Source: a virus. Taken from it: a DNA stretch of 39,290 bases. The translations under genes were made by a program, and so were the position numbers. The stretch is from positions 1-39,290 of IMG/VR virus record IMGVR_UViG_3300036770_002235; one strand, given 5' to 3'. Below the pieces are notes generated by a model. That model was not told the DNA's origin. It searched no databases and saw only the letters and a program-made list of their open reading frames with translations. This document shows, in pieces, positions 8,541 through 27,200 of this stretch (position 1 is the stretch's first letter; each line of letters opens with the position of its first letter).

Positions 8541-9341
8541 TTATCCGATCATATCCATAGGTGGTTCGGCATACTTACTGAGGACTTCACTCTCTATCTT
8601 TTCAATTTCACCAATCGCATCCTCATACAACTGCCTACCATTTAATGTTAATCCACCAGGCAATTGAACATTATTATATTTGATGAGGTTCTGCCCCCAC
8701 TGCTTTTTCATAAGGGCAGTGGCATAACGCTTCACAAACATATCATTGTACATTTCAGTAGCATCATTTGGATTGACAAGACGGTGTGCTTCAATCAACA
8801 ACCACTGACCTTCTTGTAGAAAATCCTTATCCACATCAAGATACAAACGATCACGACGCATCGTGTATCTAAACTGTTGAAATGATCCATTGTTCAAAAC
8901 CATATCCAGAGTTTCCAGATATTGTTTTGTCATATAATAATTCAGAATGTCAAGTGATCCAAAAGCATACAGGTCATTAAGGAAGATCTGATATTCAATA
9001 CCAAATAAATTACTGCGAATGCTATTTCCAACCACTCCAAACACTCTGCTAACACCCACGACATGATCTGGAATTGGAATATAATTTGTTGCCTCTTCCC
9101 AATTTGTAGTTCCATTTGTGGTTGTAACTTCACCTTCTAATCTTGTCTTATCATCAGCATTAATTTCGTGTCTTAAGTAGCAACGCTCCATACCGTTATA
9201 GCAGTTCTCTTGGAAGAACTGAATAGTATCATCAATAACGTTACTGACCTGCTCATCATCAATGTTAATCTGAAGGACAGGTTCACCAAGCTGCCTCTTA
9301 CAGTATGTGATGAGTTCAGTTCTTGAGCTTGGTTTTGCCAT
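8541..9341 (-). CDS. 13: Neck protein gp13
   Basis: Head-completion neck protein, 266 residues (T4 gp13 has 309). Characteristic segments are SRTELITYCKRQLGEPVLQI, the central IPDHVVGVSRVFGV and the C-terminal LPGGLTLNGRQLYEDAIGEI. I use the ATG at 9341 (MAKPSSR) rather than the TTG at 9350, because the upstream bases belong to the U-run of a terminator-like hairpin. It heads the 13-14-15-16 run and has a CTAAATA promoter motif 25 bases upstream, inside that hairpin's loop. Confidence 0.92.
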   Translation of the reverse strand: MAKPSSRTELITYCKRQLGEPVLQINIDDEQVSNVIDDTIQFFQENCYNGMERCYLRHEINADDKTRLEGEVTTTNGTTNWEEATNYIPIPDHVVGVSRVFGVVGNSIRSNLFGIEYQIFLNDLYAFGSLDILNYYMTKQYLETLDMVLNNGSFQQFRYTMRRDRLYLDVDKDFLQEGQWLLIEAHRLVNPNDATEMYNDMFVKRYATALMKKQWGQNLIKYNNVQLPGGLTLNGRQLYEDAIGEIEKIESEVLSKYAEPPMDMIG

Positions 9342-9351
9342 TAGACACAAA

Positions 9352-9390: not shown

Positions 9391-9582
9391 TTACTCTGCT
9401 ACTACTTCAGTAGGAGTGTCTTCTGCTTCTGGTTCTTCTAGAAGACTTAGAGTTTCTAGACCACCTTGTAACTTAAGCTTGTATTCTCTTGCTTTAGTCA
9501 GGTTTTCTTCTAGTTCAGCAATTTGCTTATCAGTGGTAGCAATTTGCTCTTCAAAGTTTTTCTTAAGTGCTGCTGGATCCAT
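9391..9582 (-). CDS. Small coiled-coil protein upstream of gp13
   Basis: Sixty-three residues from the ATG at 9582 (MDPAALKKNFEEQIATTDKQ); a GTG nine bases earlier is an alternative start. The first two thirds form a heptad-rich coiled coil (IAELEENLTKAREYKLKLQG), and the tail is acidic (EEPEAEDTPTEVV). Similar short coiled-coil proteins sit before gp13 in marine T4-like phages, as I recall, without a known role. It is followed by a strong terminator-like hairpin. Confidence 0.75.
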   Translation of the reverse strand: MDPAALKKNFEEQIATTDKQIAELEENLTKAREYKLKLQGGLETLSLLEEPEAEDTPTEVVAE

Positions 9583-9609
9583 AGTTATCACATGTAATAG
9601 TGTGTAAGA

Positions 9610-9796: not shown

Positions 9797-10996
9797 TTAA
9801 ATGGTAATAGTAATATCAGATCCTGTAAATAATACAGATGTCCAACTTCCACCTGCTATTCTATAAATAATCGCTCCATTTTCTCCATTATAACCAGATG
9901 GACCACCTTGATTTATCAATCTAAATGCTCCACCATAACCGACATTACTTCCAGGATAATTTGCGTCACCAGTTCCTGTTGGCATTCTCATTGATCCATA
10001 ACCTGGAGTACTTCCATTTCCCCATGCTCCATATGTTTGTAAACTGAATATATGAGAAACATATTCTATTGGTGTAAGATCTGAATTAATTGGAACTGTT
10101 GTTATTCCAGATTCTCTAACAAATGCAGATCCAGCACCCCCGCCGCCACCAGACCAAGAATCTCCATCATTAGAACCAGAACCTCCACCCCACCAACCTC
10201 CGCCGCCACCGCCGCCGCTACCCCAGGCATTTCTATAATGAACGGCATTGCCACCTTGTAAAGCAGATCCAGCAGCACCATCTCCAGATCCAGACGAAGA
10301 ATCTCCACCAACTCCACCAGCACTTGTAGTTCCACCACCAGCATTTGCTACGTGATAACCATAAGATCTTCTACCAGCATTTCCTACTCCATTAACATTA
10401 TTAATACCACCACCACCATTCGCTTCATCATTGGAGTTAGCTGGATAACCAGGACCACCTCCCCCACCGCCTCCACCAGGAGCAATTACTAAGGCATTTG
10501 CTTGTGATTTAGTGCCAACAAAAACTCCAGAATATCCACCACCTCCACCTCCTGCATCATATGTTGAGTATGTACTATTTCCTCCACCGTTATAACCACC
10601 TAAAGCATCAGAAGGGTTGCCACCAATTAATCCTCCTCTACCACCTCCACCAACACTTAATAATAATGAAGTTCCAGTAGCAATATTAAAAGAAGCAGTT
10701 ACAAATCCACCAGCACCACCTTCTTTAACATTGTAAAAAGTATTAGTGTGATAACTAGTTCCATTTCTTTGCTGAGATCCAGAACCACCTCCAGCTCCCC
10801 ATAGTTTAAATTCTACTAATTTTTTTCCTCCCCCGCCAACATCACTCCATTGACCAGAAATATAAGCTTGTATGGATTGCTTTTCACTATTATAAATCAT
10901 CAACCCTTCAACTCCAGAAGGTCTATTTGAATTAGTAAATGATGGTAATTTTAAACCATTGGTAAGAGTTACTGTACCAACATTTATGTTAGACAT
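9797..10996 (-). CDS. Adhesin-like fibre protein with glycine-rich head
   Basis: A 399-residue protein. Residues 1-55 are a short form of the attachment module shared with its upstream neighbours (LKLPSFTNSNRPS, GLMIYNSEKQ, ISGQWSDVG). Residues from about 60 onward are a glycine-rich domain opening VEFKLWGAGGGSGSQQ, with many runs of four to seven Gly separated by Ser/Asn/Tyr. It ends in a beta segment (YRIAGGSWTSVLFTGSDITI). Polyglycine domains with stacked helices occur in phage adhesins of the gp38 type; a shared fold is inference. The probable role is receptor binding at a fibre tip. No Shine-Dalgarno is visible; a GATAAATA motif lies 18 bases upstream. Confidence 0.8.
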   Translation of the reverse strand: MSNINVGTVTLTNGLKLPSFTNSNRPSGVEGLMIYNSEKQSIQAYISGQWSDVGGGGKKLVEFKLWGAGGGSGSQQRNGTSYHTNTFYNVKEGGAGGFVTASFNIATGTSLLLSVGGGGRGGLIGGNPSDALGGYNGGGNSTYSTYDAGGGGGGYSGVFVGTKSQANALVIAPGGGGGGGGPGYPANSNDEANGGGGINNVNGVGNAGRRSYGYHVANAGGGTTSAGGVGGDSSSGSGDGAAGSALQGGNAVHYRNAWGSGGGGGGGWWGGGSGSNDGDSWSGGGGGAGSAFVRESGITTVPINSDLTPIEYVSHIFSLQTYGAWGNGSTPGYGSMRMPTGTGDANYPGSNVGYGGAFRLINQGGPSGYNGENGAIIYRIAGGSWTSVLFTGSDITITI

Positions 10997-11014
10997 ATCG
11001 TAAAATTTTTTAAG

Positions 11015-11021
11015 TATTTAT
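11015..11021 (-). promoter_or_regulatory. Late-promoter-like GATAAATA before a glycine-rich adhesin gene
   Basis: ATAAATA preceded by G on the minus strand, overlapping the TAA stop of the 11018-12136 gene and 18 bases before the ATG at 10996. A short inverted repeat (AGTATT 11013-11018, AATACT 11025-11030) surrounds it. Confidence 0.45.
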
Positions 11022-12136
11022 CTTAATACTAAAGTTATACATCCATTACCGCCAGCAAATCCATTTGCACCTCCACTTCCATATGGAATTACTGGTCCAG
11101 TTGGTCTAGTTGAGTCTGGATTTGCTGCGTCACCAGGAGATCCACCAGTAAAAGTAGAACCAGAAGTTACTGATGGAGATACGTATCCAGATCCACCACC
11201 TCCAGCTCCTGGACCAACTTCAGTACCACCACCTCCTCCATAATATCCACCGCCACCGCCAGCACCAGGATAAGTATTCCAACGACCATTACCACCCTGT
11301 AAAGCTGATCCAGATTGAGCAACTCCTGGACCACCACCAACACCACCAGAACTTTGGGAACCTCCAGCACCACCCCTACCAGTAGCATTGGAAGCGTTTC
11401 CTCCAGAAGATCCACCACCACCACCACCAAAAGCAGTATCACCAGATCCGCCCCCGCCTCCTCCAGCAATCATGATGCTATTAGCAAATGCTACAGTACT
11501 GGTAAAAATTCCACTAAATCCTCCACCACCAGCAGCGTCAGCAGTATTGCCAGCTCCTGCTGCTGGTTGTCCACTTTGACCTCCTCCACCAGGAGTTCCT
11601 GCTGATCCAGTAGCACCACCACCGCCTCCGCCGCCAACTACAAATTGGTATGTAGTTCCTGGATTTAAAGTAAAAATTCCTTTAGTGTAACCGCCACCGC
11701 CTCCAGTTATTCCAGAACTTCTTTGAGTTCCACCCCCACCAGCACCCCAGAGATAAAATTGGAAAGTTAAAGATTGTGATGTGGTAATAGAATATGTACC
11801 TGGAGTTGTAAAATTATAAGAACTACCAGTGGATGAAAATTCTATATTTGAACCATTTGCTAGAATTGTCTTTGGTATAGTTCCTGCTATAGATACCCAA
11901 GGAGAAGTGCCACCAACATAAACATCTATATTATTAGTTTGTGTATTGAAACCAGTATATCCAATACTAATATTTGTTGCTGGTCTAGTACCAGTCGTCC
12001 AAGTTGGGAGTTTGAAGATATTATTTAATAATAAACTATTTACATTAACAGTATTAATAGTTCCAGAAGAAGAAAAATTACAAACTTCCGAACCAGTTAA
12101 ACTTTGTATAGTATCTAATTTTATAATTCTAGGCAT
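11018..12136 (-). CDS. Adhesin-like fibre protein with glycine-rich head
   Basis: A 372-residue paralogue of the neighbouring fibre genes. The N-terminus (MPRIIKLDTIQSLTGSEV) and the segment NSLLLNNIFKLPTWTTGTRP, then YTGFNTQTNNIDVY, are close to the upstream LamG-type gene. From about residue 130 comes a glycine-rich domain opening TFQFYLWGAGGGGTQRSSG, with repeated Gly runs and the segments NPGTTYQFVVGGGG and SIMIAGGGGG. It ends NGCITLVLR. The likely role is a receptor-binding tip. It starts eight bases after the previous gene with no visible Shine-Dalgarno, which suggests coupled translation. Confidence 0.82.
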   Translation of the reverse strand: MPRIIKLDTIQSLTGSEVCNFSSSGTINTVNVNSLLLNNIFKLPTWTTGTRPATNISIGYTGFNTQTNNIDVYVGGTSPWVSIAGTIPKTILANGSNIEFSSTGSSYNFTTPGTYSITTSQSLTFQFYLWGAGGGGTQRSSGITGGGGGYTKGIFTLNPGTTYQFVVGGGGGGGATGSAGTPGGGGQSGQPAAGAGNTADAAGGGGFSGIFTSTVAFANSIMIAGGGGGGSGDTAFGGGGGGSSGGNASNATGRGGAGGSQSSGGVGGGPGVAQSGSALQGGNGRWNTYPGAGGGGGYYGGGGGTEVGPGAGGGGSGYVSPSVTSGSTFTGGSPGDAANPDSTRPTGPVIPYGSGGANGFAGGNGCITLVLR

Positions 12137-12143
12137 AATTTAA

Positions 12144-13058
12144 TTATTGAGAGAAATTAGAAGAATTATAAACTTGTAAAACTTCGGCGTCTGTTAATAT
12201 TCTTTCGTAAACAACTGCTTGATCTATAGAAGTTGGAGCAGCATAACCACTATAAGGATAGTGAGCTCCAATATCACTACATCTTGTATACGTTTCATTA
12301 ATTGATACAGAAGTATATGTATTTGTTAAAGCTCCATTAGTGTATATTTTTAAAGTATTTGCGGTAGTCATAGAAAAAGCAATATGTGTCCAACTACCAG
12401 TATTTACTAACGATCCTTGATAAGCATTTCCAGAATCTCTGAATTCGCATCTTCCACTACTAATACCAAATCCCCCATAAACACTTCCCCTAATATCTCC
12501 AAATAGAGGAACAGCTGGACCATATGTTTGTGGAGCAACAGTTTGAGTGCCTCTATACCATATGCAAAAAGTTAAATCTGTAGATGTTCCAACAATAGGC
12601 ATCTGATCAATACGGAAGAAATTATTATTTACAGATCTTCCAGTATCACTAAAATATCCAGATTCGCCTACTCCACCACTAGTAACAAATGTTCCTGCTG
12701 TTCCATTTGGTTGTGAAATAGTCCAAGTACTTCCTGGCAATAATCCTCCAGATGAAGAATCAAATGTCATAGCAATTCTATAACCAGTAGGTAAATTTGG
12801 TTTTGACGCATTGGAAAAAACAACCCAAGCAGTTCCATTGTAAACTTCTACTTGATTTGTTTGAGTATTAAATCCAGAATATCCAACTTGTAAATTAGCA
12901 GTTGGTCTTGTGCTTGTTGTCCAAGTTGGAAATTTTATATTGTTATTAACCAACAATGAATTAACAGAAATTTGCTCAACACTTCCATTAGAGTTAAAAA
13001 GAGCTACTCTATTTCCAGTTGGTGATTGTAATTCATCTATTCTTAGTATGCTTGCCAT
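12144..13058 (-). CDS. Adhesin-like fibre protein with LamG/concanavalin-type head
   Basis: A 304-residue protein. Residues 1-80 are the shared attachment module (MASILRIDELQSPTGNRV, FPTWTTSTRP, GYSGFNTQTNQVEVYNGTAW). Residues about 95-300 look like a laminin-G/concanavalin A-like jelly roll: LTFCIWYRG, a central GSWTHIAFSMTTANTLKIYT, and the closing SIDQAVVYERILTDAEV that marks LamG_3-type domains. Such domains bind glycans, so a role in host-surface recognition is likely. It stands between the small 108-residue gene and a glycine-rich paralogue. Confidence 0.83.
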   Translation of the reverse strand: MASILRIDELQSPTGNRVALFNSNGSVEQISVNSLLVNNNIKFPTWTTSTRPTANLQVGYSGFNTQTNQVEVYNGTAWVVFSNASKPNLPTGYRIAMTFDSSSGGLLPGSTWTISQPNGTAGTFVTSGGVGESGYFSDTGRSVNNNFFRIDQMPIVGTSTDLTFCIWYRGTQTVAPQTYGPAVPLFGDIRGSVYGGFGISSGRCEFRDSGNAYQGSLVNTGSWTHIAFSMTTANTLKIYTNGALTNTYTSVSINETYTRCSDIGAHYPYSGYAAPTSIDQAVVYERILTDAEVLQVYNSSNFSQ

Positions 13059-13060
13059 TT

Positions 13061-13387
13061 TTACTCAAACTTAGATACGTTAGTTAATGACCAAGAATTT
13101 CCCTGGCATAGTTTTTTGGTAATATTTAAATTTTCTATACACTCTTTAAAGAATGACAACTCAAAAATATTGTCAACGTTTTCCGATTTTAAAACAATAT
13201 CAATAATATCTTTAACACCCTCTAGTGTATTAAATTTCGTATTAACTTGATAAAAATCTTCTTTGTATGAGTATCCAGAAGTACTGTCTTTATAGTAAAC
13301 AGATAAATTGTATTTAAAAGAGATGATAAAATCATCTTTTAAATTACATTCAGTGACTACAAAATTGTATTCAATGTTGTTTTCCAT
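13061..13387 (-). CDS. Hypothetical protein, 108 residues
   Basis: Starts MENNIEYNFVVTECNLKDDF. It is predicted as N-terminal beta strands (FIISFKYNLSVYYKD) followed by helices (LEGVKDIIDIVLKSENVDNI). No motif is recognised. It begins directly after the oxygenase stop and ends two bases before the LamG-type adhesin, so it lies in the same transcription unit. It could serve as a chaperone or assembly factor for a neighbouring fibre, but nothing in the sequence proves it. Confidence 0.7.
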   Translation of the reverse strand: MENNIEYNFVVTECNLKDDFIISFKYNLSVYYKDSTSGYSYKEDFYQVNTKFNTLEGVKDIIDIVLKSENVDNIFELSFFKECIENLNITKKLCQGNSWSLTNVSKFE

Positions 13388-13963
13388 TTACTTCTGTTTC
13401 TCCTGTATAAATTTTGAAGCTAGAGTTATTCTAAATGGTGGGGCATCATGATTTTGAGATTTTGCTGAATGTGGAATAGAAGAATCAAAAATCACAATTC
13501 TTCCTGGAACAAATGAACAACAATGAATTATCTCTTTCCTTTGATCATCATAAAATAAAGTTTCTCCTCCCCAATCAGAACTCCAATTTCTATTTACATA
13601 GTACAGTAGTGTTATTCCTTTAGATTTGGAAAACTCATCAACATGAATTAAATGTGTATCACTGTGTATACCCAAATTTAAGTATGATCGCCAATGATTA
13701 TATGTATCTTGTGGAATTAAATCTTTTAATAAATCTAATCTATCACCAGAAAATATGTTTTCTAAAATATAATCATTTTGTTCCAGAGGACATCCCAATC
13801 TTTTATTTGTAAGATTTTGAACCTCTGCCTCACTTGAATTATATATTGAGTATTTATGATTGATGGCGGAAGCGTATATTCCAGAAATTTCTGAAAACGT
13901 AAACAAATCATCAACCATTATTATTTTTCTTTGATCATCAATATCAATATTTTTCAAAAACAT
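13388..13963 (-). CDS. 2OG-Fe(II) oxygenase (prolyl-hydroxylase-like)
   Basis: A 191-residue protein with the double-stranded beta-helix signature. The iron-binding HVD is at 107-109; the next segment is GITLLYYVNRNWSSDWGGET (116-135); the distal iron His165 is in SSIPHSAKS; and the 2-oxoglutarate-binding Arg178 is in FRITLASKF. This is the prolyl 4-hydroxylase-type branch, which uses 2-oxoglutarate, O2 and Fe(II) to hydroxylate side chains. Marine T4-like phages often carry such genes near tail fibres. The substrate is unknown; a structural protein encoded next door is a reasonable guess. An alternative first His is His100 (HSD), judged less likely from spacing. Confidence 0.85.
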   Translation of the reverse strand: MFLKNIDIDDQRKIIMVDDLFTFSEISGIYASAINHKYSIYNSSEAEVQNLTNKRLGCPLEQNDYILENIFSGDRLDLLKDLIPQDTYNHWRSYLNLGIHSDTHLIHVDEFSKSKGITLLYYVNRNWSSDWGGETLFYDDQRKEIIHCCSFVPGRIVIFDSSIPHSAKSQNHDAPPFRITLASKFIQEKQK

Positions 13964-13966
13964 AAA

Positions 13967-15052
13967 TTAACTGGCAACGTTTCCAACTGGGTATAGTATA
14001 GCATAGTAATCTCTCAGAGATTGTACTTGAGCATCTGTTAATGCTACGTTAAATAAAACAGCATCTAGAACATACCCAGTAGTTGTCCATGAAGAACTAT
14101 CTACTCTTCTTGTGTTACTCATCCCAGAAATAAGAATACTAGCTCCATAAGTCGGACCAGCACCAATACTAATTCCACTTATTGAACCATTGTAGAAAGG
14201 TCCTGAAGTTTTACCTTTCCAAGATTTTTGAATATTTTGTGAAGCATTGGTATTTACGACATTAACATATTGATTAATTGTCGCATTATCTCCACCTGGA
14301 TCCCCAGCAATAGCACCACCATCATTGTCATACCAATGTTGATATGTAGAATTAGTCCCCCATTGAGGGTTGCCCCATCCAAACAATCCACCACCAACTC
14401 TATCGGGGATACCTGTGCCTGGTCCTTGGTTGTGACCAGAAAAAGATGGGCTATAATTTGTTGTACTACTTGCTGATGTTCCACCACCATAAACATAAGC
14501 AACTGTCCATAGTGGATAAGAACTAGCAGGACAGAAATTAAAATATGCTGCTGATTTAAATGCTAATCCACAAAATCCACTGAAATTTGCTGCTTTTTTT
14601 CCACCTTGAGTTGTAACAGTAACATTGCTACTAAAATGAGAAGAAGTATCATTGATTAAATCATAGGTTGATCCATATGATCCATTATTTTTCCAAAAAT
14701 TTGAAGAATTTAAAACTGTTCCATCTGAATATGTAGTTAAATCAGATGCTTGATAATGTAAAATTGGAGTTACACCAACAGATTGAGATAATGTTTTTGT
14801 AACAGATGACCCAACAGAAACCCAACCATTTGTGGATCCTGTATAAATTTCAGTGACTTCTACTTGTGTATTATATCCAATCATTCCAACTTCTGGAGTT
14901 CCTGGTCTCGTAGCAGTGGTCCAAGATGGAACCTTTAATGTTCCATTTGCTACTAATTTTCCATATGTTTCAAAATTATGTCCAGCAGGAACTCTGACTG
15001 TATTACTATAGGCAGAAATACCTTGAATGTCGCGTACAGATAAAATACTCAT
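13967..15052 (-). CDS. Adhesin-like fibre protein with lectin-type head
   Basis: A 361-residue protein. The N-terminus (MSILSVRDIQGISAYSNTVR) and the segments LKVPSWTTATRP and GMIGYNTQVEVTEIY form the attachment module shared by the array. Residues about 100-350 look like a concanavalin A-like jelly roll: ILHYQASDLTTYSDGT, AANFSGFCGLAFKSAAYF, and the closing GYVLDAVLFNVALTDAQVQS. A likely host-binding tip protein. It begins one base after the stop of the 2893-residue fibre gene and is the first of the four adhesin-type genes. Confidence 0.82.
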   Translation of the reverse strand: MSILSVRDIQGISAYSNTVRVPAGHNFETYGKLVANGTLKVPSWTTATRPGTPEVGMIGYNTQVEVTEIYTGSTNGWVSVGSSVTKTLSQSVGVTPILHYQASDLTTYSDGTVLNSSNFWKNNGSYGSTYDLINDTSSHFSSNVTVTTQGGKKAANFSGFCGLAFKSAAYFNFCPASSYPLWTVAYVYGGGTSASSTTNYSPSFSGHNQGPGTGIPDRVGGGLFGWGNPQWGTNSTYQHWYDNDGGAIAGDPGGDNATINQYVNVVNTNASQNIQKSWKGKTSGPFYNGSISGISIGAGPTYGASILISGMSNTRRVDSSSWTTTGYVLDAVLFNVALTDAQVQSLRDYYAILYPVGNVAS

Positions 15053-15053
15053 T

Positions 15054-18000
15054 TTATACTATGCTCCAGGAAGCTCCGTCTTGAATTGTTATTGTATATC
15101 CATTATTTATGGTCATTGGTCCAGCGGTCATACAGTTAGTATTTGCTGGAATTGTTATACTTTCAGCAATTGTGTTTCTATTTGCCTTAAACACACCATA
15201 AGTATCCAACCACTGTTTATCGCCATTGGCAGAAAGAATACCAGTAGCATTAATTGTGCCACCAACATCTAACTGATAAGAAGGAGCGGTAACGTTACCA
15301 ATACCAACTCTAGAATTTCTGTAAATGTGAGTACCACTGTCATTTGTAGAATTTGTCCATCTGGAAGTTACAAATGGTAGATTATTCTGATAAACAGTAC
15401 CATTAATATTGATGTTACCTTCTACGTTTAATTTGTAAGTAACTGTAGATCCAGTTGCTGTGCTTGTAAATGTAGTTGTTCCAATACCGACTAGACTGCT
15501 TGTTCCAGAGATAGCAATCGCTGGTGTTGTTGCCCAAGTACTTCCGCCAGCAGCAGTAGAAGGTGTAATCTCAAAAATATCATTAGCAAGTAACTGGTTG
15601 CCAATTCTAAAGTTTCTGAAACCAGAAGCACCAAGGAACAACATAGGCGCTCCAGCATTGCTTGTTGCGCTTCCAATTTGAATATTTGTAGTTGCTAAGA
15701 ATGAGGTTGATTGAGTAGTTCCAGTTACAGTTAATTTATTTGTTGGGTTTAAATCAGCAGCACCAATACCAACATTACCATTCCATCCAATAACTAGTTT
15801 TGTTGTTGGGGCGGAAGTTGTTGTGGCATCATCTAAAGTTTGGAATACAATTGAAGTTCCTCTTGTTGTATTAGTAGATTCATCATTAATTTGATGTAAA
15901 ATTCTACCAAGAGTTCTTTGTGTAGTATTGTTATATGTAGAACCTCTAAAAACAATACCTTGACCAAACCCACCAAATTCTACAGCTCCTGTATTTTCGG
16001 ATTCTATAGTTAATACATCTAGTGGAGTTGTTCTTGCTGTATTATCTGTTCCAGATACAGAAGCATAGGCATGTAGAGAAGTTACTGGGGAAGTTCTATT
16101 AACACCAACTCTGTTATTTGTTGAATCAACAAATAGTGTTCCACTGTCAACATTTAAGTTGGCACTCATGGTTACGTTTCCAGTAAATCCAGAAGTACCA
16201 GAAACACTTAGATTGCTTCCGGCGCCAGTCAAGGTTAGCGAACCAGTCATGGTATCGCCTGCTTTAAGGACGTTACCAGAGGCGTTACCAGTTAAAGCAG
16301 CAGTGATAGTACCAGCAGAGAAGTTACCAGAAGCATCACGAATAACGGCAGTAGAAACAACGTTTGTGCTGTTGAATGTTACGTTACCAGAGTTCCAAAT
16401 AGTATTACCATTAATAGTAAATCCATTAGCACTAACAACCTTAACATCAAGAGTACCACTAGCAGTTGATCCATTACCACCAGTAGCTACGATAGCAGCA
16501 TTATAGGTAGCAGCAAGGGTTGATGAGTTGAAGTATAATCCAGGTGAAGATGCCTGACCATCTTTTCTACCAAGTCTTAGATTGGCAGTTCCACCATCGC
16601 TTTCAAGAGTAGCAGCAACAAATGTACCATCAGGAATTCCATTGGCATCCGCATCCAGATAAGAAATACTATAATCTCTGATTGCTTTTTTGTTGCTAGC
16701 AGTTCCGATTGAAACAGCACCAGTAAAATTGCCAGTTGTTAATGTGCCAGTAATAATTGTGTAATTATTAAACACATCGTTTGTATCATTATTTACAGTA
16801 ACATCTGTAATAGAAATTGTTCCAGTTCCCTGATCATTTGAATTATAAAGATTGACTGTTAAACCAGGAAGGAATGGAGTTGTTGTTAGTGTTTCATCTG
16901 GAATATAAATTCTATATCTTGGTTGACCAGTAAACGAAACAACTCTTATTGTATCCTGAAAATCTTTTTTGGTTTGATAAGATGGTAGACGATTATCACT
17001 TAGAATACCATAGTTCATATTAATGGCATTCTGGAACCAAGTGCCTTGTCTATTATCAAGTCTGTCGGCATCAAGATTTGTTCCTGGACCATCATTTAAA
17101 GATGTCCAGACTTTTGCCCAGGATCCGAAAGCATCTACAGCAGTTCCAGATCCACGCAACCACATATTATCATTATCTGTGAATGCTAATTGCTTCACAC
17201 CACCATCAACGGTAAAACCAGATCCTCCTGGTCTGATGGTCATAACAAGATTTTTTGTACCTCCATCAGATAATCCGTTGGAAGCATTATTTCTCGTATC
17301 AGCAACAATACCAACAGAGAAAGCATTTGGAGCTGGATTTGAAGTTGGGTTTGTGGTGTTTGAAATGAGACGTAGTGTATTACCAGACTGACCAGAAATA
17401 CTAATGTTATAAGTACCAGAAAGTCTATCTACTGATAGAGTACCAGCATTCATATTTGAAGCGTTTAGATAATATGCTCCCTGTGATCCATCTAATAAAT
17501 CAGCATCCAATCCACTATCAGCACCAGTCTTTAATCTTACTGAACCATTGCCTGCTAGTCCAACTTCAAATTGAGATTTTTTAAATCTGGCTACACCAAC
17601 AGTACCAAATTCATCTGCGTTAACAGTAGATCCTTCTCCACCAGCTCTTGCGATATCTAATGAAGTATTGGCATACTGTTTATTAATTGTGCTTATCTTT
17701 GCTGCTAAGATTAATCCAGATCCACCACCAAGTTCTGCTGGTGCTGTTGAAACATTAAAATCTGCTGAATAGTTTATTCCTCCACTTGTTACTGTTATTT
17801 CGCTAACAGATCCGCTGCTTACAATGATATTTGCTTTTAATCCAGTTCCTGTCCCTCCAGTTAATGGAATATCAAAATATTGACCATTAGTAAATCCTGT
17901 ACCACCGTTCGCAATAATAACAGAATCAACAAATGAACCTTGAGTGAAAGTAGATTCAAATACTAATGGAGACTGACCTCGGTTAAATTCAATAACAGTA

Positions 18001-21000
18001 CCAACTGGTAATGTAGCAGTCAAAGCATTGCTCAAAGTTACTGTAGTTAAACCAAGAGCAGTAGATACAGCATTAACTGTTGTATTTTGCTGAATGCCAG
18101 TAATGTTTGCTACTACGCTATGTCCTACTAAAACATTTGAATTTGTTGTAAATATTAGTTGACTTGAAGCACTTGATGCTTGAGTGTACAACTTAGCAAA
18201 ATATCTTGTTTCGGCACCTTTTATGGATTGAACGACAGGAGCATATGCTTGATCTCCTCTTAAAAACGTAAATGAGTTAGCAGCATCAGAATTATTTGCT
18301 AGATTTGTTGTACTAATAATACCAGTAATATTATTAGATGCTACTGTAGTTGTTGATAGAGATACCCAGTTATTATTATTTGAAGCAGAAGTATTTACAA
18401 CTCTATTAATATCAATAGTTTCTGCTGGTATATCACTTGACTGAATTGTATCAGTTTCTGTTATCTTGATATTATTTACAATATTTCCATATACTCTACT
18501 TTCAATCAACGCAACACCAGTTGCTTGTGTTCCAGCACCAGATGGAGCAGAGAATGTTACAGTTGGCGGAGTTGTATATCCTTTACCCCCTTTAAATCCA
18601 TTAAAGGTTTGGATTGTAATAGTAACAACTTGACCATTAGCAATAGTACATGTTGCTGCCGCTGCTACAGCACCTGCTTGAGGAGATCCTCCAGTGATTG
18701 TAATTACTGGAGGAGCAGTATATCCAGATCCTGGATCTGTGATGTTAATCTGATAGACAACTCCTTGACGATATTCAGTTGCTTGAATTTTACCGCCAGA
18801 AAGACTGCCAGTAAATACATCATTGACGGTAAATTGTAAGGTTGGATCTACAGCAAAAGAAACAAACAAACTAGCATTATCATTATTCAGAATGAGAGAA
18901 GCAGAAGTATCTTGTTGAATCGCAATATCTCCAGCAAGAGCCCCTTCAATCGCAAGACGAGCTGCCTGATCTGCGACCGTATAAACGCTAAATGGTCTAA
19001 GTGGTGGGATCTGATCAATAGAGATCTTACCACTATCTGTAAGTTCTACAAGTGCTCTAGGAACAGCGTTTGTAGAATATGGTTTGTTGATATATGGACC
19101 AAGATTATTCGTGATGTAATCTCTAACTGCTTTCTGAGTTGGTAGTTTGGAGTCAGTTGAGTTAGCACCTCCAAGGGTATTGGAAGCATCAAAACCAGTA
19201 ACAACAACTGATCCACCTTTTAGTTTTAGGAATTCAACTTCAGAAATTGTAACAGTACCTGTAAACGTAATCCTACCAGTTCTGTTTTCAATTTGTGCGA
19301 ATGTGCCAACTTTGAAATCTCCAAGTTCATCAGTACCAGAACAATATACACGACCATATCCTTCTGAAACTTGTTCATTTGCTACATCTTTTACACCACC
19401 ATTTTCTGGTAGAGCATTATAATTTGTACCAGATCCAGCAAATTCCCAAGTATGTGATGAAGAGTTAACAATAGATGGTCTATGTAATCTGATTGTTGCT
19501 CCAGTTAAAGATGAGTTTGATATTGGATTGCCAGTAGAAATAGATTTAAATTCTGCTGGAGTTCCAAGACCTCCTTCCAGAACAATTTTAGCACTCTCAT
19601 TTGATACTGGCTCCACCGTATCAACAAAATATTCAACATCTGGATTTACATTTTCATATCCATCAATTTTTACGATATAGTGTTCAAGTGGTCGTCTTCC
19701 CAATCCTTCAATCGTGAACTGAGTTCTTCCAGCTGGAGTTGATGTTACATTACTAATAGTTCCAACGTCAAATGAATACGCAAAGTCATTAAAACCAGTT
19801 GCTCTTAGAGCATAGATACCAAAGTTAGTAGCAGAGTTTGTTACCGAAGCATAACCACCACTCTCGGCAAGAATACCATCTTCGCAGAAAATAACAAACA
19901 CAGAAACCAACTGTACATAACCATCATTGATGATCTTGTATCCTGTTCCACCAAATGACACAATGGTGAATGCTGAAGCAACCATTGATTTGCCTTGATT
20001 TGGGAATGTAGCGGAACCATCAAGTTCTAGACCAGGGAATGGGCAGTTTGGTTGTTTTACTTTAGATCCATCTACAAGAGCTCCACTACCTCCAAGGAAT
20101 GAAATTACGGAGGCGTTTTGTGTATAAGGTGAAGCTTCAATAATTGGATAATCATCATAATCTGAACGGGGAGTATAAATTACACCGTCTGCGTCATAAA
20201 TTGTGCTATCTGGATATGTTACAATTCCAACTGTACTATACAAAGTACCAAAAGTTTTAGTTGTTGCTCCAGGAGCAATTGTTCCATCTAAAATATCTTC
20301 TAGAAGCGCAAATGAAGTTGTAATAGCTGAAACAATAGAGGCGCACTTATTAACATTTGGATCTACTAGAATAGTATTATCAGTGAATTTTGGAATTGGA
20401 CTATGGAGAGTAGTATATACAGTACCAGTTCCATTTGTACCTGTCTTCCAATTTCTCATGGCAAGGATACAAAGATCTCTTACTTGATTAAAAGCATAGA
20501 TTGTTTCATCTCTTTGTGCTTCTGGAATGCCAGTAAGTGCTGTACCAGTGAAATATGATTCGACAGCAGTAACAATTCCAGCATTGCCTCCCAGAACAAG
20601 ATCTCTAAGTAGTCCATTAATAATATAATTGATATCTCTACGACACTTGCTTTCATTTAAGTTTGATAAACCGAGAGATGGGTATTGTGCTTTTGTAATA
20701 CCATAAGCCTCATCAGCAATAAAATCTCTGTTTCTAGCAATTAGATAAGCAGCATCTAAAGTTGTACCACTAGCATTATTTGCTAATACATCAACAAATA
20801 GATATGAAAGTGTGTTGATAGCAGATGCTACGTTGGCACATGCTGGAGAAGCAATATCATCAATTACAGTTGGATCAAAATAACGTGTAACGGAAGAATA
20901 TTCTGGAACATAAACTGGATCACTTGGAGTTCCATTTCCAGTTCTCCACTTTCTCATCGCATAGATTGCTAACTCTCTAGCATATTCAATAGCACGAACA

Positions 21001-23735
21001 GTTTGAGTAATTTCGTAATCTACAAGATCAATTTGTCCAGCAGAAATATATTTTTTAGCTGCTTCAATTACATTATAATTGCTTCCAAATTCTAAGTCCC
21101 TACAAACAGCATTCAAGAAGTGCCCAATATCTCTACGGCACTTAGCATCGCTTACTGGAATGTTGAAGCTTGGATATGTCTTTTGAGTTGTTACTCCATC
21201 TATAACGCAACTAACAACAATACCAGCAAGTCTTACAACGCTATCATCTACTAAAGAAGCAACTGGAATTGATGTTGTAATTGTTGCTTCTCCAGTAACA
21301 ACATTATCATACGTAAATCCAGTTACATTATAAGTAGTACCGCCAAATGTTACTGTACCTCCACTTACATACGTATGTGCGAATGATGATGGTCCGAGAT
21401 ATATTTTAAATTGAACACCACTAATTCCATATACAGGGAAATATTCTCTCTTGAATTGATCATTGATTTTTCTTACAACTTCATCAGCGATAAAGTCAAT
21501 ATTGTTTCTAATCTGTAAGCAAGCATCTTGGTATCTTCTTGCTACTGGAGTTGCTACTGGAAATTTGTTTGGTGAGTTTAATAGCGAAAGAGTGATAGAT
21601 TTTGAATATGACTTTACAGTAGCAAATTGACCAGGATCAAAGTTTGAAACAGTAGTTACTGTAGTTTTCTTTGGAATAACAAATCTTCTCGCTCTTCCAT
21701 CAGCATCTTCGAGCACCTTGTAGATTCTTTGTTTTCCATTTAAGAAAGAAAGATCTGGTGATGATGTTGGAAGATTTGAAATAAAGATTTCCTGACCTTC
21801 TTTGAAATTGTGAGTATTCTGTCTTCCAACCAGAGCATTCGTATAGAAGACAATACCACCAAGATCTTCTGGTGTTCCGTAATCTCCAAAACCACCAGTA
21901 GCGACTTCTGGATCACCCTGCTTAGAAAAATCAATTCTTACAATAGGTAAGGCAGAAGTGATATCTTCATCAATATAAACAACCTCTCCCTCTGCTCGGA
22001 TAGAACGAATGTCAGTAGAAATAAATTCGTATGCTGCTCTTAAGAATGTAAATACTACGGTTCCATTTGTAGCAGTTCCAGTGGTATGAGATGGAGCAGT
22101 GGATCCAGAAGTACCAGCAGTTGTTACAGTGTAAACATTATCACCAGTCCAAACTAATTGACCTAATGTATATGCTGTATTTTGAGCAAAACTTACTGTA
22201 CCAGTACCACCATATTGGAATGTTTCACCAGCATTAAAGCTGCCACTGATAACACTAAAATCAACAGATCCTGCTATATAAGCACTTGCTCCTGTAGTGG
22301 TTGTAAAATCTACACCAGATATTAATCCAATCGCACCAGTGTTAACACCTTTTATTCTTTGTCCAGATGTTAATTGACTTAATCCTGTGTTTGTTTGGAA
22401 TGTAGATCTAAATCTTTCTGGACCAAAAATTTGGTGACCAACTGGAAAATCAACTCCATAATCACCATTTGCTGTTACATCAATTTCAATACGCTGTTTA
22501 TCATCAAAGACCATCGCGTAGTCCCAAGTAGCAACTGGATCACCATTAGAATCAACTTTATCTCTATATGTGACACCAGTTACATAGTTTTTATCTCCAA
22601 ACTTAAAGATATGCTTACGTGGATTATTTGGTCTAATAATAACAAGACGTAAGTTATCACCGACAACCGAAGCATCTGGTGGAAGTGAAATTGGGTTATC
22701 CTCTACATAATCACCACCAGAAACAACAATTGTTTCTTTTACTCCTGGCGTTGTCCAGGCAATCTGAGCAGCTTTTTTAATCGTTCTAACTGGATTAACA
22801 GCAGAGCGACCATCATTTAAGTCAGAACCAATCTGCTCCGAGACATAGATACGGCCACCAACGTCATTGGTAGCAAGATTAAGAACGTATTCTGTGGTAG
22901 CAATTTTATCTGATTTGTCACCAAATGATGGAGTAATAGATCTTGGAAATATTCCAGATTGACCGCCTTGACCAAAATATGGTTGATTGACATCAACTGC
23001 TCTAATACCAATATGCTTGAATTGTACCTCACCATTTAATACAGTTCCATCTGTGTGTTGTGGTGGAGTTGTACCAGTAGTTCCAGTATTTAATGCTTGA
23101 TAAACATTTGTATTGTGATAACGATATTGATTTTGCTGTACAATAACTCCAGAAGCCCATGGAGTACCACCAGAGTTCAAGTATGTTTTTAAATTTGGTG
23201 CTCTAAACTGAGCATCTGGAGTAACAAAATTATCAATATCAAGATTTAGAATTCTTGCCGTATCAGAAATGATGGAAGTAGATGTTCTGATAGCACCATT
23301 AATATCAAGTTCAAAATCAACAGTATCAAGAAAAGCAGTCGCAGCAGCACCTTGACCATTACCACCAGTGATAGTTACAGAAGGAGCAGTTAAATATCCT
23401 TTACCAATATTATCAACCAATATTGCTACAACTTTACCATCGCTAATTACAGCGGAAGCAAGAGCTTGAACTCCACCATTTGGTGGAGCAGATAGAGTAA
23501 CAGTTGGTTGTAGACTATAACCAGAACCTTGAGCTGTTACTTCAATTCTATCTATTCTGTTACCAGTTCTATTAATACCAATGCGAGGCAAAGTAGTTAC
23601 TGAGTCAAGTTGTGCTCTTAGAACCTCTTTTTCATTAGATCCAGAACCAGAACGAATTGTTAATTCATTACTACCGATTAGAGAAGGATTAGTAGCTTTG
23701 ATTTGTTCTCTATCGGAATTAAACTGAAAACTCAT
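15054..23735 (-). CDS. Giant tail-fibre / baseplate-periphery protein, 2893 residues
   Basis: A mosaic, mostly beta protein. In order: about residues 60-140, a GSGYSLQPTVTLSAP / GKGYLTAPSVTITGG repeat pair; about 290-390, a pectin-lyase-like stretch (VSEQIGSDLNDGRSAVNPVR, GGDYVEDNPISLPPDASVVG); about 730-1150, two helical repeats built on RNxDFIADE and KCRRDI; about 1650-1760, further GxGY repeats; about 2075-2250, two fibre motifs (DLLDGSQGAYYLNASNMNAG and DRLDNRQGTWFQNAINMNYG); about 2480-2560, trimeric-fibre-like repeats (GDTMTGSLTLTGA, TLFVDSTNNRVGVNRTSP). It ends in TIQDGASWSIV, a common marine-phage fibre tail. Role inferred as a long fibre or baseplate spike platform; no T4 name can be given. 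AGAGG and GGA lie before the ATG. Confidence 0.85.
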   Translation of the reverse strand: MSFQFNSDREQIKATNPSLIGSNELTIRSGSGSNEKEVLRAQLDSVTTLPRIGINRTGNRIDRIEVTAQGSGYSLQPTVTLSAPPNGGVQALASAVISDGKVVAILVDNIGKGYLTAPSVTITGGNGQGAAATAFLDTVDFELDINGAIRTSTSIISDTARILNLDIDNFVTPDAQFRAPNLKTYLNSGGTPWASGVIVQQNQYRYHNTNVYQALNTGTTGTTPPQHTDGTVLNGEVQFKHIGIRAVDVNQPYFGQGGQSGIFPRSITPSFGDKSDKIATTEYVLNLATNDVGGRIYVSEQIGSDLNDGRSAVNPVRTIKKAAQIAWTTPGVKETIVVSGGDYVEDNPISLPPDASVVGDNLRLVIIRPNNPRKHIFKFGDKNYVTGVTYRDKVDSNGDPVATWDYAMVFDDKQRIEIDVTANGDYGVDFPVGHQIFGPERFRSTFQTNTGLSQLTSGQRIKGVNTGAIGLISGVDFTTTTGASAYIAGSVDFSVISGSFNAGETFQYGGTGTVSFAQNTAYTLGQLVWTGDNVYTVTTAGTSGSTAPSHTTGTATNGTVVFTFLRAAYEFISTDIRSIRAEGEVVYIDEDITSALPIVRIDFSKQGDPEVATGGFGDYGTPEDLGGIVFYTNALVGRQNTHNFKEGQEIFISNLPTSSPDLSFLNGKQRIYKVLEDADGRARRFVIPKKTTVTTVSNFDPGQFATVKSYSKSITLSLLNSPNKFPVATPVARRYQDACLQIRNNIDFIADEVVRKINDQFKREYFPVYGISGVQFKIYLGPSSFAHTYVSGGTVTFGGTTYNVTGFTYDNVVTGEATITTSIPVASLVDDSVVRLAGIVVSCVIDGVTTQKTYPSFNIPVSDAKCRRDIGHFLNAVCRDLEFGSNYNVIEAAKKYISAGQIDLVDYEITQTVRAIEYARELAIYAMRKWRTGNGTPSDPVYVPEYSSVTRYFDPTVIDDIASPACANVASAINTLSYLFVDVLANNASGTTLDAAYLIARNRDFIADEAYGITKAQYPSLGLSNLNESKCRRDINYIINGLLRDLVLGGNAGIVTAVESYFTGTALTGIPEAQRDETIYAFNQVRDLCILAMRNWKTGTNGTGTVYTTLHSPIPKFTDNTILVDPNVNKCASIVSAITTSFALLEDILDGTIAPGATTKTFGTLYSTVGIVTYPDSTIYDADGVIYTPRSDYDDYPIIEASPYTQNASVISFLGGSGALVDGSKVKQPNCPFPGLELDGSATFPNQGKSMVASAFTIVSFGGTGYKIINDGYVQLVSVFVIFCEDGILAESGGYASVTNSATNFGIYALRATGFNDFAYSFDVGTISNVTSTPAGRTQFTIEGLGRRPLEHYIVKIDGYENVNPDVEYFVDTVEPVSNESAKIVLEGGLGTPAEFKSISTGNPISNSSLTGATIRLHRPSIVNSSSHTWEFAGSGTNYNALPENGGVKDVANEQVSEGYGRVYCSGTDELGDFKVGTFAQIENRTGRITFTGTVTISEVEFLKLKGGSVVVTGFDASNTLGGANSTDSKLPTQKAVRDYITNNLGPYINKPYSTNAVPRALVELTDSGKISIDQIPPLRPFSVYTVADQAARLAIEGALAGDIAIQQDTSASLILNNDNASLFVSFAVDPTLQFTVNDVFTGSLSGGKIQATEYRQGVVYQINITDPGSGYTAPPVITITGGSPQAGAVAAAATCTIANGQVVTITIQTFNGFKGGKGYTTPPTVTFSAPSGAGTQATGVALIESRVYGNIVNNIKITETDTIQSSDIPAETIDINRVVNTSASNNNNWVSLSTTTVASNNITGIISTTNLANNSDAANSFTFLRGDQAYAPVVQSIKGAETRYFAKLYTQASSASSQLIFTTNSNVLVGHSVVANITGIQQNTTVNAVSTALGLTTVTLSNALTATLPVGTVIEFNRGQSPLVFESTFTQGSFVDSVIIANGGTGFTNGQYFDIPLTGGTGTGLKANIIVSSGSVSEITVTSGGINYSADFNVSTAPAELGGGSGLILAAKISTINKQYANTSLDIARAGGEGSTVNADEFGTVGVARFKKSQFEVGLAGNGSVRLKTGADSGLDADLLDGSQGAYYLNASNMNAGTLSVDRLSGTYNISISGQSGNTLRLISNTTNPTSNPAPNAFSVGIVADTRNNASNGLSDGGTKNLVMTIRPGGSGFTVDGGVKQLAFTDNDNMWLRGSGTAVDAFGSWAKVWTSLNDGPGTNLDADRLDNRQGTWFQNAINMNYGILSDNRLPSYQTKKDFQDTIRVVSFTGQPRYRIYIPDETLTTTPFLPGLTVNLYNSNDQGTGTISITDVTVNNDTNDVFNNYTIITGTLTTGNFTGAVSIGTASNKKAIRDYSISYLDADANGIPDGTFVAATLESDGGTANLRLGRKDGQASSPGLYFNSSTLAATYNAAIVATGGNGSTASGTLDVKVVSANGFTINGNTIWNSGNVTFNSTNVVSTAVIRDASGNFSAGTITAALTGNASGNVLKAGDTMTGSLTLTGAGSNLSVSGTSGFTGNVTMSANLNVDSGTLFVDSTNNRVGVNRTSPVTSLHAYASVSGTDNTARTTPLDVLTIESENTGAVEFGGFGQGIVFRGSTYNNTTQRTLGRILHQINDESTNTTRGTSIVFQTLDDATTTSAPTTKLVIGWNGNVGIGAADLNPTNKLTVTGTTQSTSFLATTNIQIGSATSNAGAPMLFLGASGFRNFRIGNQLLANDIFEITPSTAAGGSTWATTPAIAISGTSSLVGIGTTTFTSTATGSTVTYKLNVEGNININGTVYQNNLPFVTSRWTNSTNDSGTHIYRNSRVGIGNVTAPSYQLDVGGTINATGILSANGDKQWLDTYGVFKANRNTIAESITIPANTNCMTAGPMTINNGYTITIQDGASWSIV
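20300..21535 (-). repeat. Tandem helical repeat within the 2893-residue fibre gene
   Basis: Two copies of a helical unit. Copy one starts near 21531 with DACLQIRNNIDFIADEVVRK, copy two near 20755 with DAAYLIARNRDFIADEAYGI. Each continues to KCRRDI (GHFLNAVCRDL or NYIINGLLRDL) and ends in an Ala-Met-Arg-(Lys/Asn)-Trp helix. Copy one is longer because a beta segment with HTYVSGGTVTFGGTTYNVTG is inserted between its first helix and KCRRDI. Confidence 0.7.
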
Positions 23736-24294: not shown

Positions 24295-27200
24295 TTACCT
24301 CTTGATGATGTTACTGATAACAGTCACTTTTACTACATTTCCAGTGGATAGAGAAGTATTGAGCGTGAATGTAACACGAACATTATTGCTAGCGTTAAAA
24401 TCAAAAACACAAGAGATTAACTCAGCACCAGTCTTAACATTACCAAAATCAGTAAAGAATATATCAGTACCTTTATCTATAACAGAATATTCAATAAACT
24501 CTTTATCACCTGTGGTTTCATTATGAGCAATAATTTGTACTTTAGAAGAAGCATGTAATGCTGGATCATACAATACTGTATTGCCAGAATTAACAGTTCC
24601 ACGAGTAAGAGTAACGTTTGTTGTTGATATCTTATAATCAGCAATTTCTAACTCTTTAAGTTCACTATCAAATACTTTAATACCATTATAAACACCAGTT
24701 CCAAATCCTAAGTTATAGTAAATATCACCAGTGTCACTCAATCTCAACAGAGGATCATTTGTTAATCCACTAGAAAGTCCAAGATCTAAATTATCTTTTG
24801 TTGTTGAAATAAAAGCATTTGTAGAAGATGATGTATCAATAGAAACTGCTAGGTTATTGAACGTAATTAAAGATGCGTCTAGATTTAAAGTGTTTGATGT
24901 ATCAGAAGTAATCGTATCAATAGTATCTAATTGAATATCATTTGCGGTAACTCTCAGCGTGTTGCTTCCATTATTATAGAAGTATAAAATATTTTCATTA
25001 GAACCAGCAGAGAGTTCGGGAATAATATAAGTGTTTCCATCTACATCACGAACTCCTCCAAGAGAAGACCAGTTAGTTCCGTCATATCCTTCATACTGAG
25101 AGATCGTGGTGTTAAATCTAACAGATCCTTGAATTGGAGCTCCTCTCTCATTGATATTTCCAACTGGAAGAACCAAAGAAGTAGCAGCATCAATTGTAAC
25201 TTTTTTACCAGTATTTGGTCTTAATTTTAAATCATTGATATCTGTGGAAATTTCATTGGTCTGTAATCTTAAATCTCCATTAATAACCAAAGATGTTCCA
25301 CCATCTGGAGCAACACGAAGTTCTGAAATTTCTTCAAAAGTTAAAGGAGCAACAGCAGATATAGAATATCTTAATGTTGCTGTTCCATTTGCGAAATTGT
25401 TTCCAGTTGTATTTGTTGGTTCGTTTCCAGATGTGCCAGTTGTTCCACCAGTCACAACCTCATAAATGTTATTTCTATACTTAAGATACTGACCAGTTGT
25501 TACTGGTGTACTTGCTGTCCAATTTACATTCAATGGAGCAGAAAGATTTAATGATCTTACTTTTTTTACATTTATAAATTCTTGATATTCTGTAGTAAAT
25601 CTTACAGTATTAATATTATCATTATAGAACCATAAACGATTATCATTTGATCCTATAGTTTGTTCTGCCGTAATGTAAGTATTACCATCAAGATCTCTTA
25701 CACCACCAAGAGAAGACCACGAAGATGTCGTTCCGCTATATCCTTCATATTGGTTAGTATCTGTATTAAAACGGATAGATCCACTCTCTACTACGCCAGC
25801 TGCTGGTCTTTGTGCTGTTGTTCCAGATGGAATAGTTATAGCTGAAGTAGCATTAATTTTGGTAACTCTTCCTGTTCCTGGAGATAGTAAAATATTATTT
25901 CCAGCAGCAGAGGATATAGTATTATTTGTTATTGATAAAATATCGTTAATGTTAAGAGAATTTGTCGTTTTTAAAATTCCAGAGGTAGTAATGTTACCAG
26001 AAGAATTTGTTATCTGAACATTCGTTCCAACATTTAGATTTCCAGTAATATTTACATTTGAAGATGTTACAGATAGATTTGTACTAGATGATATAGATGA
26101 CGTTGTAATTGAATTACTCGTAATTGTTGGAGATGTTAATGATCCACTTACAGAAACTGTGGATATTTCTGCGTCAGTTCCAATAAATTTTATTGCTGTG
26201 AATTCTCCAGTTCCAATATCTCCAGTTATTACATCAGAAGATTGTAATTGAGCTACCGATAAAGAAAAATCACTTCCAAACACTTTTGGATTATTTGAAT
26301 TAATTGTAAGAACTGCTTCTTGATTATCTTCACCTCCCTCATTTTGGTGAGAATTTCCTTGAGAAGCACAATAATAATATAAATTTGGAGTGGTTTCTGT
26401 AATTTTAATTGTTAAAGAATCGCTAGATCTTACAACTCCATTTAAATATTCTACACCACGGAAGGTTAATATAGAATTTCCTGATGATAAAGGATTATTG
26501 CTTAATGTCACAACATTTCCAACTACAGATTGTACCGTAGTTCCAGAAACTAAAGATCCAGTACCAGATGATACTGTTACTGCCATTCCTGGAAGAATAC
26601 CAGAAGCATTGGTTAAAGTTAATTGATTTGATGTAGTTAATAAAGTTACATCTATGTTTTCAATTAAACTTGGTCCCCATATTCCATCACGATATTTACT
26701 AAGAGAAAAAATATGACCACTGTTTGAATTATCTGAAAGATCAAATCTATAAGTATTTCCAACATATAAAGTTATATTTGGAGTTAATACTGGTCCACTT
26801 CCAAGATCAATGAAATATCTATATTGTAAAGCAGAAGCACTGTCAACTTGATAACCTAGAGTAGTTGTTCCAGGAACAATTAAAAAATTGCCAGAAGATA
26901 TAGAATCAAAAGATAGCAATATTGATGTTACATTAGTTCCATCATCTTGTATATCTAAAATCTCTAAATTTTGCGTTGATGATACATCAGTTGCTGTTAA
27001 AATAATATTATCTGCTGGAGCAGTTCCACCAACAAGAGATCCAGAAATAGTTATCGTATCTCCAGAAGAATAATAATAACCAGAACTATTAATTGTAATT
27101 GATGTTATAACACCAAGAGCACTTCTTTGAATATTAAATGTAGCTCCTGTGCCACTCCCAGATGTTGTTGAAGAAATATTATTAAAATTTTGAACCTGTC

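Follow-up and report, generated by a model that had tools for sequence, protein, structure and literature searches.

A putative late-expressed adhesin set with exchangeable heads in a hypervariable slot of a T4-like cyanophage

How did four adhesin-like genes come to stand side by side in a viral genome, and would a single virion use them together or one at a time? This question is raised by the IMG/VR viral record IMGVR_UViG_3300036770_002235, whose 39,290 bases (the window, that is, the whole stretch of DNA analysed) encode structural genes of a T4-like cyanophage. The four genes, here called A (13967..15052), B (12144..13058), C (11018..12136) and D (9797..10996), were confirmed as open reading frames (ORFs), all intact and all on the minus strand, and they lie in what we call the slot, between a giant fibre gene and the neck gene g13. 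The original prediction saw in them the duplication of a docking module with head swapping, giving one virion several receptor-binding tips or a switchable set. We consider it rather probable that the array is a late-expressed multi-adhesin set with exchangeable heads, forming a hypervariable part of the host recognition cluster of T4-like cyanophages, which was examined here on its g13 side. The comparison draws on loci collected by synteny from six named phages and 80 environmental sequences, on 12 named phages added later, and on three further loci taken for full-length relatives of B or D; these loci carry the prefix L below.

The N-terminal pattern proposed as common to the four proteins is borne out by alignment that goes beyond composition: in all six pairs, none of 2000 shuffles reached the observed score (65-237). 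B and C form the closest pair, both as proteins (score 237) and in DNA. Two N-termini had been said to be alike at the DNA level, which holds strongly for B and C (57 vs a codon-shuffle maximum of 20); A/C (31 vs 21) and A/B (26 vs 23) also lie just above their shuffles, while D shows no DNA similarity to A, B or C above codon shuffles. The wording of the pattern likewise fits A, B and C and fails for D, whose N-terminus is ~27 residues shorter and reads SFTNSNRP in place of WTTxTRP. This difference recurs among phages as two N-terminal classes, long (A, B and C) and short (D). Among 84 slot-type proteins, six were dropped as truncated, lacking a full module or being a piece of a long protein, and 71 of the remaining 78 were distinct; a tree of these 71 N-termini separates the two classes without exception (71/71, support 0.94), and the length label agrees with a leave-one-out hidden Markov model for 59 of 60 N-termini.

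The heads are of three kinds. Four distinct heads had been expected, and we reject this on the basis of C and D, whose glycine-rich heads are related (score 374 vs a shuffle mean of 189, reached by none of 500 shuffles); the heads of A and B are like none of the others, with 68 to 372 of 500 shuffles reaching the scores. The expected split into two LamG-like and two glycine-rich heads stands for three of the four proteins. B carries a LamG/ConA-like head (PF13385, E 6.3e-11, 43.1 bits vs a cut-off of 27.6), and C and D match the ALK/LTK glycine-rich family PF12810 with 39.4 bits (E 8.8e-10) and 32.9 bits, respectively, vs a cut-off of 24.5. The head of A, the first gene after the giant fibre, has no Pfam match at E<=1 and remains unassigned. 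By sequence, neither the A head nor C matched anything in the Protein Data Bank (PDB), C had no match among phage records, and no full-length relatives of A or of C were found in viral contigs. B has full-length relatives in L088:6001-6912 (64%) and L089:6001-6894 (55%), D has one in L090:402-1601, and the A head is related to that of L018:1947-3080 (75/230 identical).

Exchange of heads between N-termini is seen from both directions. Heads 60-75% identical sit on N-termini only 29-38% identical in three pairs (L008:7847-8827 with L004:13867-14802, L003:15822-16754 with L067:5257-6189, and L004:12772-13536 with L072:676-1413); conversely, unrelated heads were found on N-termini that share 50% identity or more. 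One head family occurs in both classes: the long-class member L003:14481-15452 shares a head 62-63% identical with the short-class members L008:7847-8827 and L004:13867-14802, on N-termini 38% and 30% identical, respectively. In head-exchange pairs, sliding identity shifts near residues 70-100. Glycine-rich heads, which can score high by composition and are therefore not our main proof of exchange, occur on 22 of 38 short-class proteins and on one of 31 long-class proteins, namely C (Fisher P = 6e-7, the proteins not being independent; 69 of the 71 proteins, with one near-duplicate and one head of <60 residues omitted). The N-terminus of C is 42/79 identical to that of B, and the three proteins that best match the head of C belong without exception to the short class. 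As read from these alignments, C is chimeric, with a B-like N-terminus joined to a kind of head otherwise found only on short N-termini, and heads recombine across the N-terminal classes. The head-swapping part of the original prediction thus holds.

The gene content of this interval was compared across related phages, and the slot is, judged by its sequences, hypervariable between conserved flanks. Along the minus strand the order is giant fibre, A, OX, HYP, B, C, D, a small conserved ORF and g13. The left border is the giant fibre gene (15054..23735, minus strand, 2893 aa; phrog_5342 tail fiber protein), and the right border is the small ORF (9391..9591, minus strand), the counterpart of T4-GC 834, which is found upstream of g13 in 84 of 87 sequences (86 loci plus the window); g13 itself (8541..9350, minus strand; neck, head-tail adaptor) is named in the syntenic loci and served as the synteny anchor. 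Reducing 46 complete slots to 39 distinct ones left lengths of 314-9822 bases with differing content: 22 of the 39 hold one to four genes with the WTT...W module described below, and 17 hold none. The case of L008 is instructive, as its DNA is 99.0% identical to that of the window across 3494 bases at g13, 94% in the small ORF and 82% along the main part of the giant fibre, yet no DNA match could be detected between the two slots.

Slots free of the module hold sets of ~190-aa 'tail fiber proteins', 2-oxoglutarate and iron(II)-dependent (2OG-Fe(II)) oxygenases, tryptophan halogenase and other cargo. An alternative cargo is seen in L014:6386-8069, L091:16030-17796 and L092:15670-17347, where three consecutive ORFs of ~185-200 aa, tail fiber proteins by annotation or by match, come directly after the giant fibre. 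Annotated tryptophan halogenases lie beside 2OG-Fe(II) oxygenases in L097:12531-14087, L098:14194-15795 and L005:15112-16668, and a slot fragment without module adhesins (L009:5986-7689) encodes, again beside a 2OG-Fe(II) oxygenase, a protein of 567 aa that contains a PF13578 methyltransferase domain (E 3e-7).

Two genes without the module lie within the adhesin interval of the window. OX (13388..13963, minus strand), between A and B, is a 2OG-Fe(II) oxygenase (PF13640, E 2.6e-9), a match that makes its PHROG name 'DNA endonuclease V' look misleading; HYP (13061..13387, minus strand) encodes 108 aa and might serve head A as a chaperone or cap. Many slot adhesins are followed by a small ORF (104-124 aa), and these ORFs go with the heads. 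Among 12 adhesins with such an ORF (12 of 16, the other four being second-locus copies of the same genes: L020, L055, L077 and L101), the ORFs are related in eight of the nine head-related pairs and in none of the 57 head-unrelated ones (66 pairs in all, with HYP assigned to A although OX intervenes). The sole exception is a pair with glycine-rich heads, and three separate head families contribute to the linkage. HYP is related to L018:3082-3408 (z 10.5, 0/2000 shuffles), which lies directly downstream of the relative of head A; next to that same relative lies L018:1291-1914, to which OX is 61% identical. Because L018 carries relatives of all three, the trio of head A, OX and HYP is present in two slots that otherwise differ, which suggests a travelling set. 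On this analysis the small ORF is probably a folding partner of its head, HYP being that of A, for which Pam3 gp24 with its chaperone gp25 offers a precedent; OX may modify head A.

The two N-terminal classes are also ordered. In all nine mixed arrays every long gene precedes every short one, an arrangement with a probability of 4.3e-5 under random order when phylogeny is ignored. There is a little under an even chance that this order simply reflects inheritance of one ancestral array, and not two docking sites: the arrays all come from related phages, and the order test carries no correction for phylogeny. Heads and gene numbers nevertheless vary widely between arrays, and S-CAM8 keeps the long-before-short order even though its array is not beside g13 in the stretch read, which argues against inheritance. 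A more elaborate scheme, which is rather unlikely, is that long-class proteins dock at one site, probably the giant fibre whose gene precedes theirs, and short-class proteins at another, while heads and their partners move between them to give ordered combinatorial tips, some of whose heads are modified by 2OG-Fe(II) oxygenases. The candidate docking address in A would be its first-position N-terminal tip, residues 1-30 (14963..15052, minus strand). Over the first 20 columns this tip is 90% identical to that of the first gene of L088 and 70% identical to that of L089, and the first 30 residues of 12 first-after-fibre genes are more alike than random sets of 12 drawn from 33 long-class proteins (16 of 5000 permutations reach the observed value). 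Over its whole N-terminus A shares 42/72 residues with the first gene of L088, the two heads being unrelated. We found no earlier account of the two classes or of their order in the literature searched, a search whose coverage ended short of subscription journals and supplements.

What, then, is the module that had been taken for a dock? Searched with a 56-column profile of the WTT...W module, 1558 ORFs yield 75 domains, spread over 69 of the ORFs, and the reversed proteins yield none at E<10. Removal of duplicates left 56 of 62 module proteins, and the alignment took 53 of these 56, omitting L023, L036:3-971 and L049. Slot genes hold 63 of the domains. The other 12 occur in pairs, inside the 1711-aa virion structural protein of the window and inside counterparts of it from five phages, and nine additional phage loci have the same internal pair in their counterpart. 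Related modules had been foreseen in this 1711-residue fibre, and the profile confirms them at residues 1189-1243 (25702..25866, minus strand) and 1410-1459 (25054..25203, minus strand). Stand-alone 61-aa ORFs that are barely more than the module, without a head, were seen in L094:17232-17417 and L095:17383-17568. Genes of L036:1-5555, which lie outside the class analysis, start with the second half of the module only (RFNTDS...W), possibly a third N-terminal form.

Profiles were compared with Pfam and the PDB for 54 of 65 module slices plus the two internal copies (56 in total). Twelve of the 56 match DUF7360 (PF24059) at E<=1, with a best E of 3e-7 and an E of 0.031 for A itself, below the curated cut-off; three match Mtd_N (PF18454) at E<=1, best 0.0013. 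The PDB matches by sequence are Gp49 residues 370-407 (E 8.5e-4) and TSP3 (E ~1), and in both Gp49 and the CBA120 TSP3 the module sits near the C-terminal end. In A the compact module spans residues 41-84 (14801..14932, minus strand), with a pLDDT of ~91-94 at residues 41-80. These modelled residues match TSP3 583-625 (Z 5.9), the N-terminal domain of Mtd (Z 4.5-4.8 over 42-43 residues) and the collagen trimerization domains XV (Z 4.4) and XVIII (Z 4.3), and the independent model of D, at residues 17-54, leads to TSP3 again (rmsd 1.4 over 38, Z 4.3). Mtd is the major tropism determinant of a Bordetella phage, with a variable C-type lectin head and a diversity-generating retroelement; nothing like such a head or retroelement was noticed in the window, where no search for reverse transcriptase or template repeats was made. 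Among predicted viral structures, many phage proteins align with the A model over ~80 columns and are named after other heads (F5/8 type C, glycine-rich). Repeated weak matches to one short motif of designed SAKe propellers in the PDB were discarded, and weak fold matches at A residues 280-345 were not used.

By its profile matches, the WTT...W module appears to be a DUF7360-like element. Several of its structural relatives are trimeric (TSP3 is reported as a trimer, and the collagen domains are trimerization domains by name), and for this reason the models make a trimerising joint more likely than a dock. The docking module of the original prediction survives as a shared N-terminal segment; a docking role for the module itself is weakened by its occurrence inside the long fibre, twice, and near the C-terminal ends of other spikes.

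It is unlikely that the heads are general virion decorations or have another late role, such as acting on the host surface at lysis. An oxygenase gene lies among the adhesins, and 17 of the 39 slots do without a module adhesin, both of which would suit such a role. It is harder to reconcile with the LamG head of B, with the hypervariable position beside a fibre gene, with the naming of the three slot proteins of S-PM2 as virion structural proteins in RefSeq, and with the predicted fold of D. The head of D (model pLDDT 57.9, pTM 0.60) aligns with the fibre of cyanophage Pam3 (7yfw_a) at Z 10.1 over 158 residues, and with LTK/ALK at Z about 10; in this model it resembles the Pam3 receptor-binding tip.

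A single recent tandem duplication that made all four genes, followed by replacement of heads in place, was part of the original prediction and appears quite improbable. The genes do stand close together with a module common to all, and on the N-terminal tree B and C are sisters (support 0.998), so that duplication holds for this pair, which alone looks like a local duplication in its sequences. The same tree rejects a single origin for the whole array, because the homologous segments of A and D split from those of B and C: A clusters with genes from other phages, most of which stand immediately behind the giant fibre, and D falls among short-class genes from other phages. Moreover, both classes stand side by side across phages with g13 identities of ~50 to 99%.

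Are the genes expressed together? A late promoter, NATAAATA, was reported for S-PM2 (PMC2984593; this and the papers cited below are drawn on in excerpt). The late-promoter-like motif ATAAATA lies upstream of D at position -26 (11015..11021, minus strand) and upstream of A at -59 (15104..15110, minus strand), the latter inside the 3' end of the giant fibre gene, where constraint from fibre coding is possible; B and C are without it. Ten of the 11 copies in the window are on the gene strand; their total is not above chance (11 vs 16.75 expected), so that the signal is only in strand and position. Among the 71 module genes, 33 have the motif within 70 nt upstream, compared with 2.0% of random windows. 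This placement fits two late units expressed together, not a switch. A search for inverted repeats found no pair >26 nt, the longer-range pairs being 17-20 nt and 82-90% complementary, and no invertase or reverse transcriptase was noticed in the window, a 39-kb fragment in which most genes were not scanned for such enzymes. The presence of several possible heads at a single locus might suggest a switchable set, in which inversion of DNA or some other mechanism of variation would let only one adhesin be made or displayed at a time. We regard this part of the original prediction as highly improbable: no inverted repeats suitable for an invertase were found, the four genes are intact on one strand, and A and D have late-promoter-like motifs of their own.

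We return to the late-expressed multi-adhesin set with exchangeable heads. A class-specific N-terminal tip, long in A, B and C and short in D, would most likely attach each adhesin to a particular site on the virion; the ~45-residue module, most likely a trimerising joint, would connect tip and head; and the exchangeable C-terminal head, which is LamG-like in B and TNF-like/glycine-rich in both C and D, is probably the part that binds the host surface. Some heads appear to have a dedicated small downstream protein, probably a folding partner (HYP for A), and A is also accompanied by an oxygenase. Late in infection all the genes would be expressed together, and one virion would carry several heads, a plausible outcome. 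Between phages, the slot would be remodelled by recombination at the joint and by gain and loss of whole genes, with the long-before-short order kept. The location on the virion, the trimers, docking by the tip, receptor binding and the co-display of A-D are inferred.

Several observations weigh against this reading. The presence of A-D on the virion and any binding by them are predictions from sequence. The order of the classes, besides its uncorrected test, leans on a narrow call for L004:15169-16086 (56.7 vs 51.9 bits), whose reversal would break it, and on an ambiguous one for the last S-CAM8 gene (68.6 vs 53.0, with a long stretch before the module). In the full-length relatives of B the N-terminus is less conserved than the head, the reverse of what is expected of a conserved dock (compared with its L088 relative, 162/215 identical, or 75%, in the head and 33/78 in the N-terminus). 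The module, lying also in the middle of the long fibre and near spike C-terminal ends, provides no argument for docking in itself; its fold matches all have Z <6, and the A model is poor outside residues 41-80 and about 280-340. Finally, in evolved S-TIM4, 14.5% of mutations fell in hypervariable regions that make up 16.6% of the genome (PMC6224464).

Receptor binding by T4-like cyanophages is poorly resolved. One review notes that cyanomyoviruses lack several T4 tail genes, including g12, g34 and g37, whose place may be taken by uncharacterised structural proteins (PMC2984593). The two-class adapter profile and the head catalogue provide a tool for picking candidate receptor-binding proteins in cyanophage genomes and metagenomes, and the catalogue predicts which partner protein each head needs. 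The order rule and the C chimera are directly testable claims on the position of adhesins on the virion. Exchange of heads may help the virus follow changing host surfaces.

The host recognition cluster is known in pelagimyophages and cyanomyophages as a hypervariable island of the structural region before gp14, which encodes tail fibres and proteins with domains for host recognition, concanavalin A-like ones among them (PMC7029224), and the slot of the window is in the same place, beside fibre genes and just before the neck genes. That paper, in the excerpt, treats the island as a whole, and N-terminal classes, their order, cross-class exchange and head-linked ORFs are absent from it. Earlier work also described metaviromic islands that carry genes of lectin-like, fibrinogen-like, gp38-like and Fe(II)-oxygenase type (PMC3909814). 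The branched tailspikes of Ackermannviridae, such as TSP1-4 of CBA120, likewise combine neighbouring receptor-binding genes, conserved N-terminal assembly parts and exchangeable receptor-binding parts (PMC8825819, PMC11414711). They assemble into a branched complex through an anchor domain and gp10-like XD domains (XD2/XD3 linkers), whereas the N-termini in the window are ~55-90 residues long and a Pfam search of A-D at E<=1 gave nothing gp10-like, although remote domains can escape HMMER. In Pam3, the tail fibre gp24 (7yfw) has a TNF-like and glycine-rich receptor-binding part and a dedicated folding chaperone, gp25; gp24 docks through an alpha-helical N-terminal domain and is the only fibre protein (PMC9608196). 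The D head aligns with residues 94-280 of gp24, whereas the N-terminal module of D is of beta type and D stands in a set of four. Overall, modular multi-adhesin host recognition loci are a known kind of system; what this locus adds is two ordered adapter classes, head exchange across them and small ORFs linked to heads, together with the likely demotion of the WTT...W module from dock to joint.

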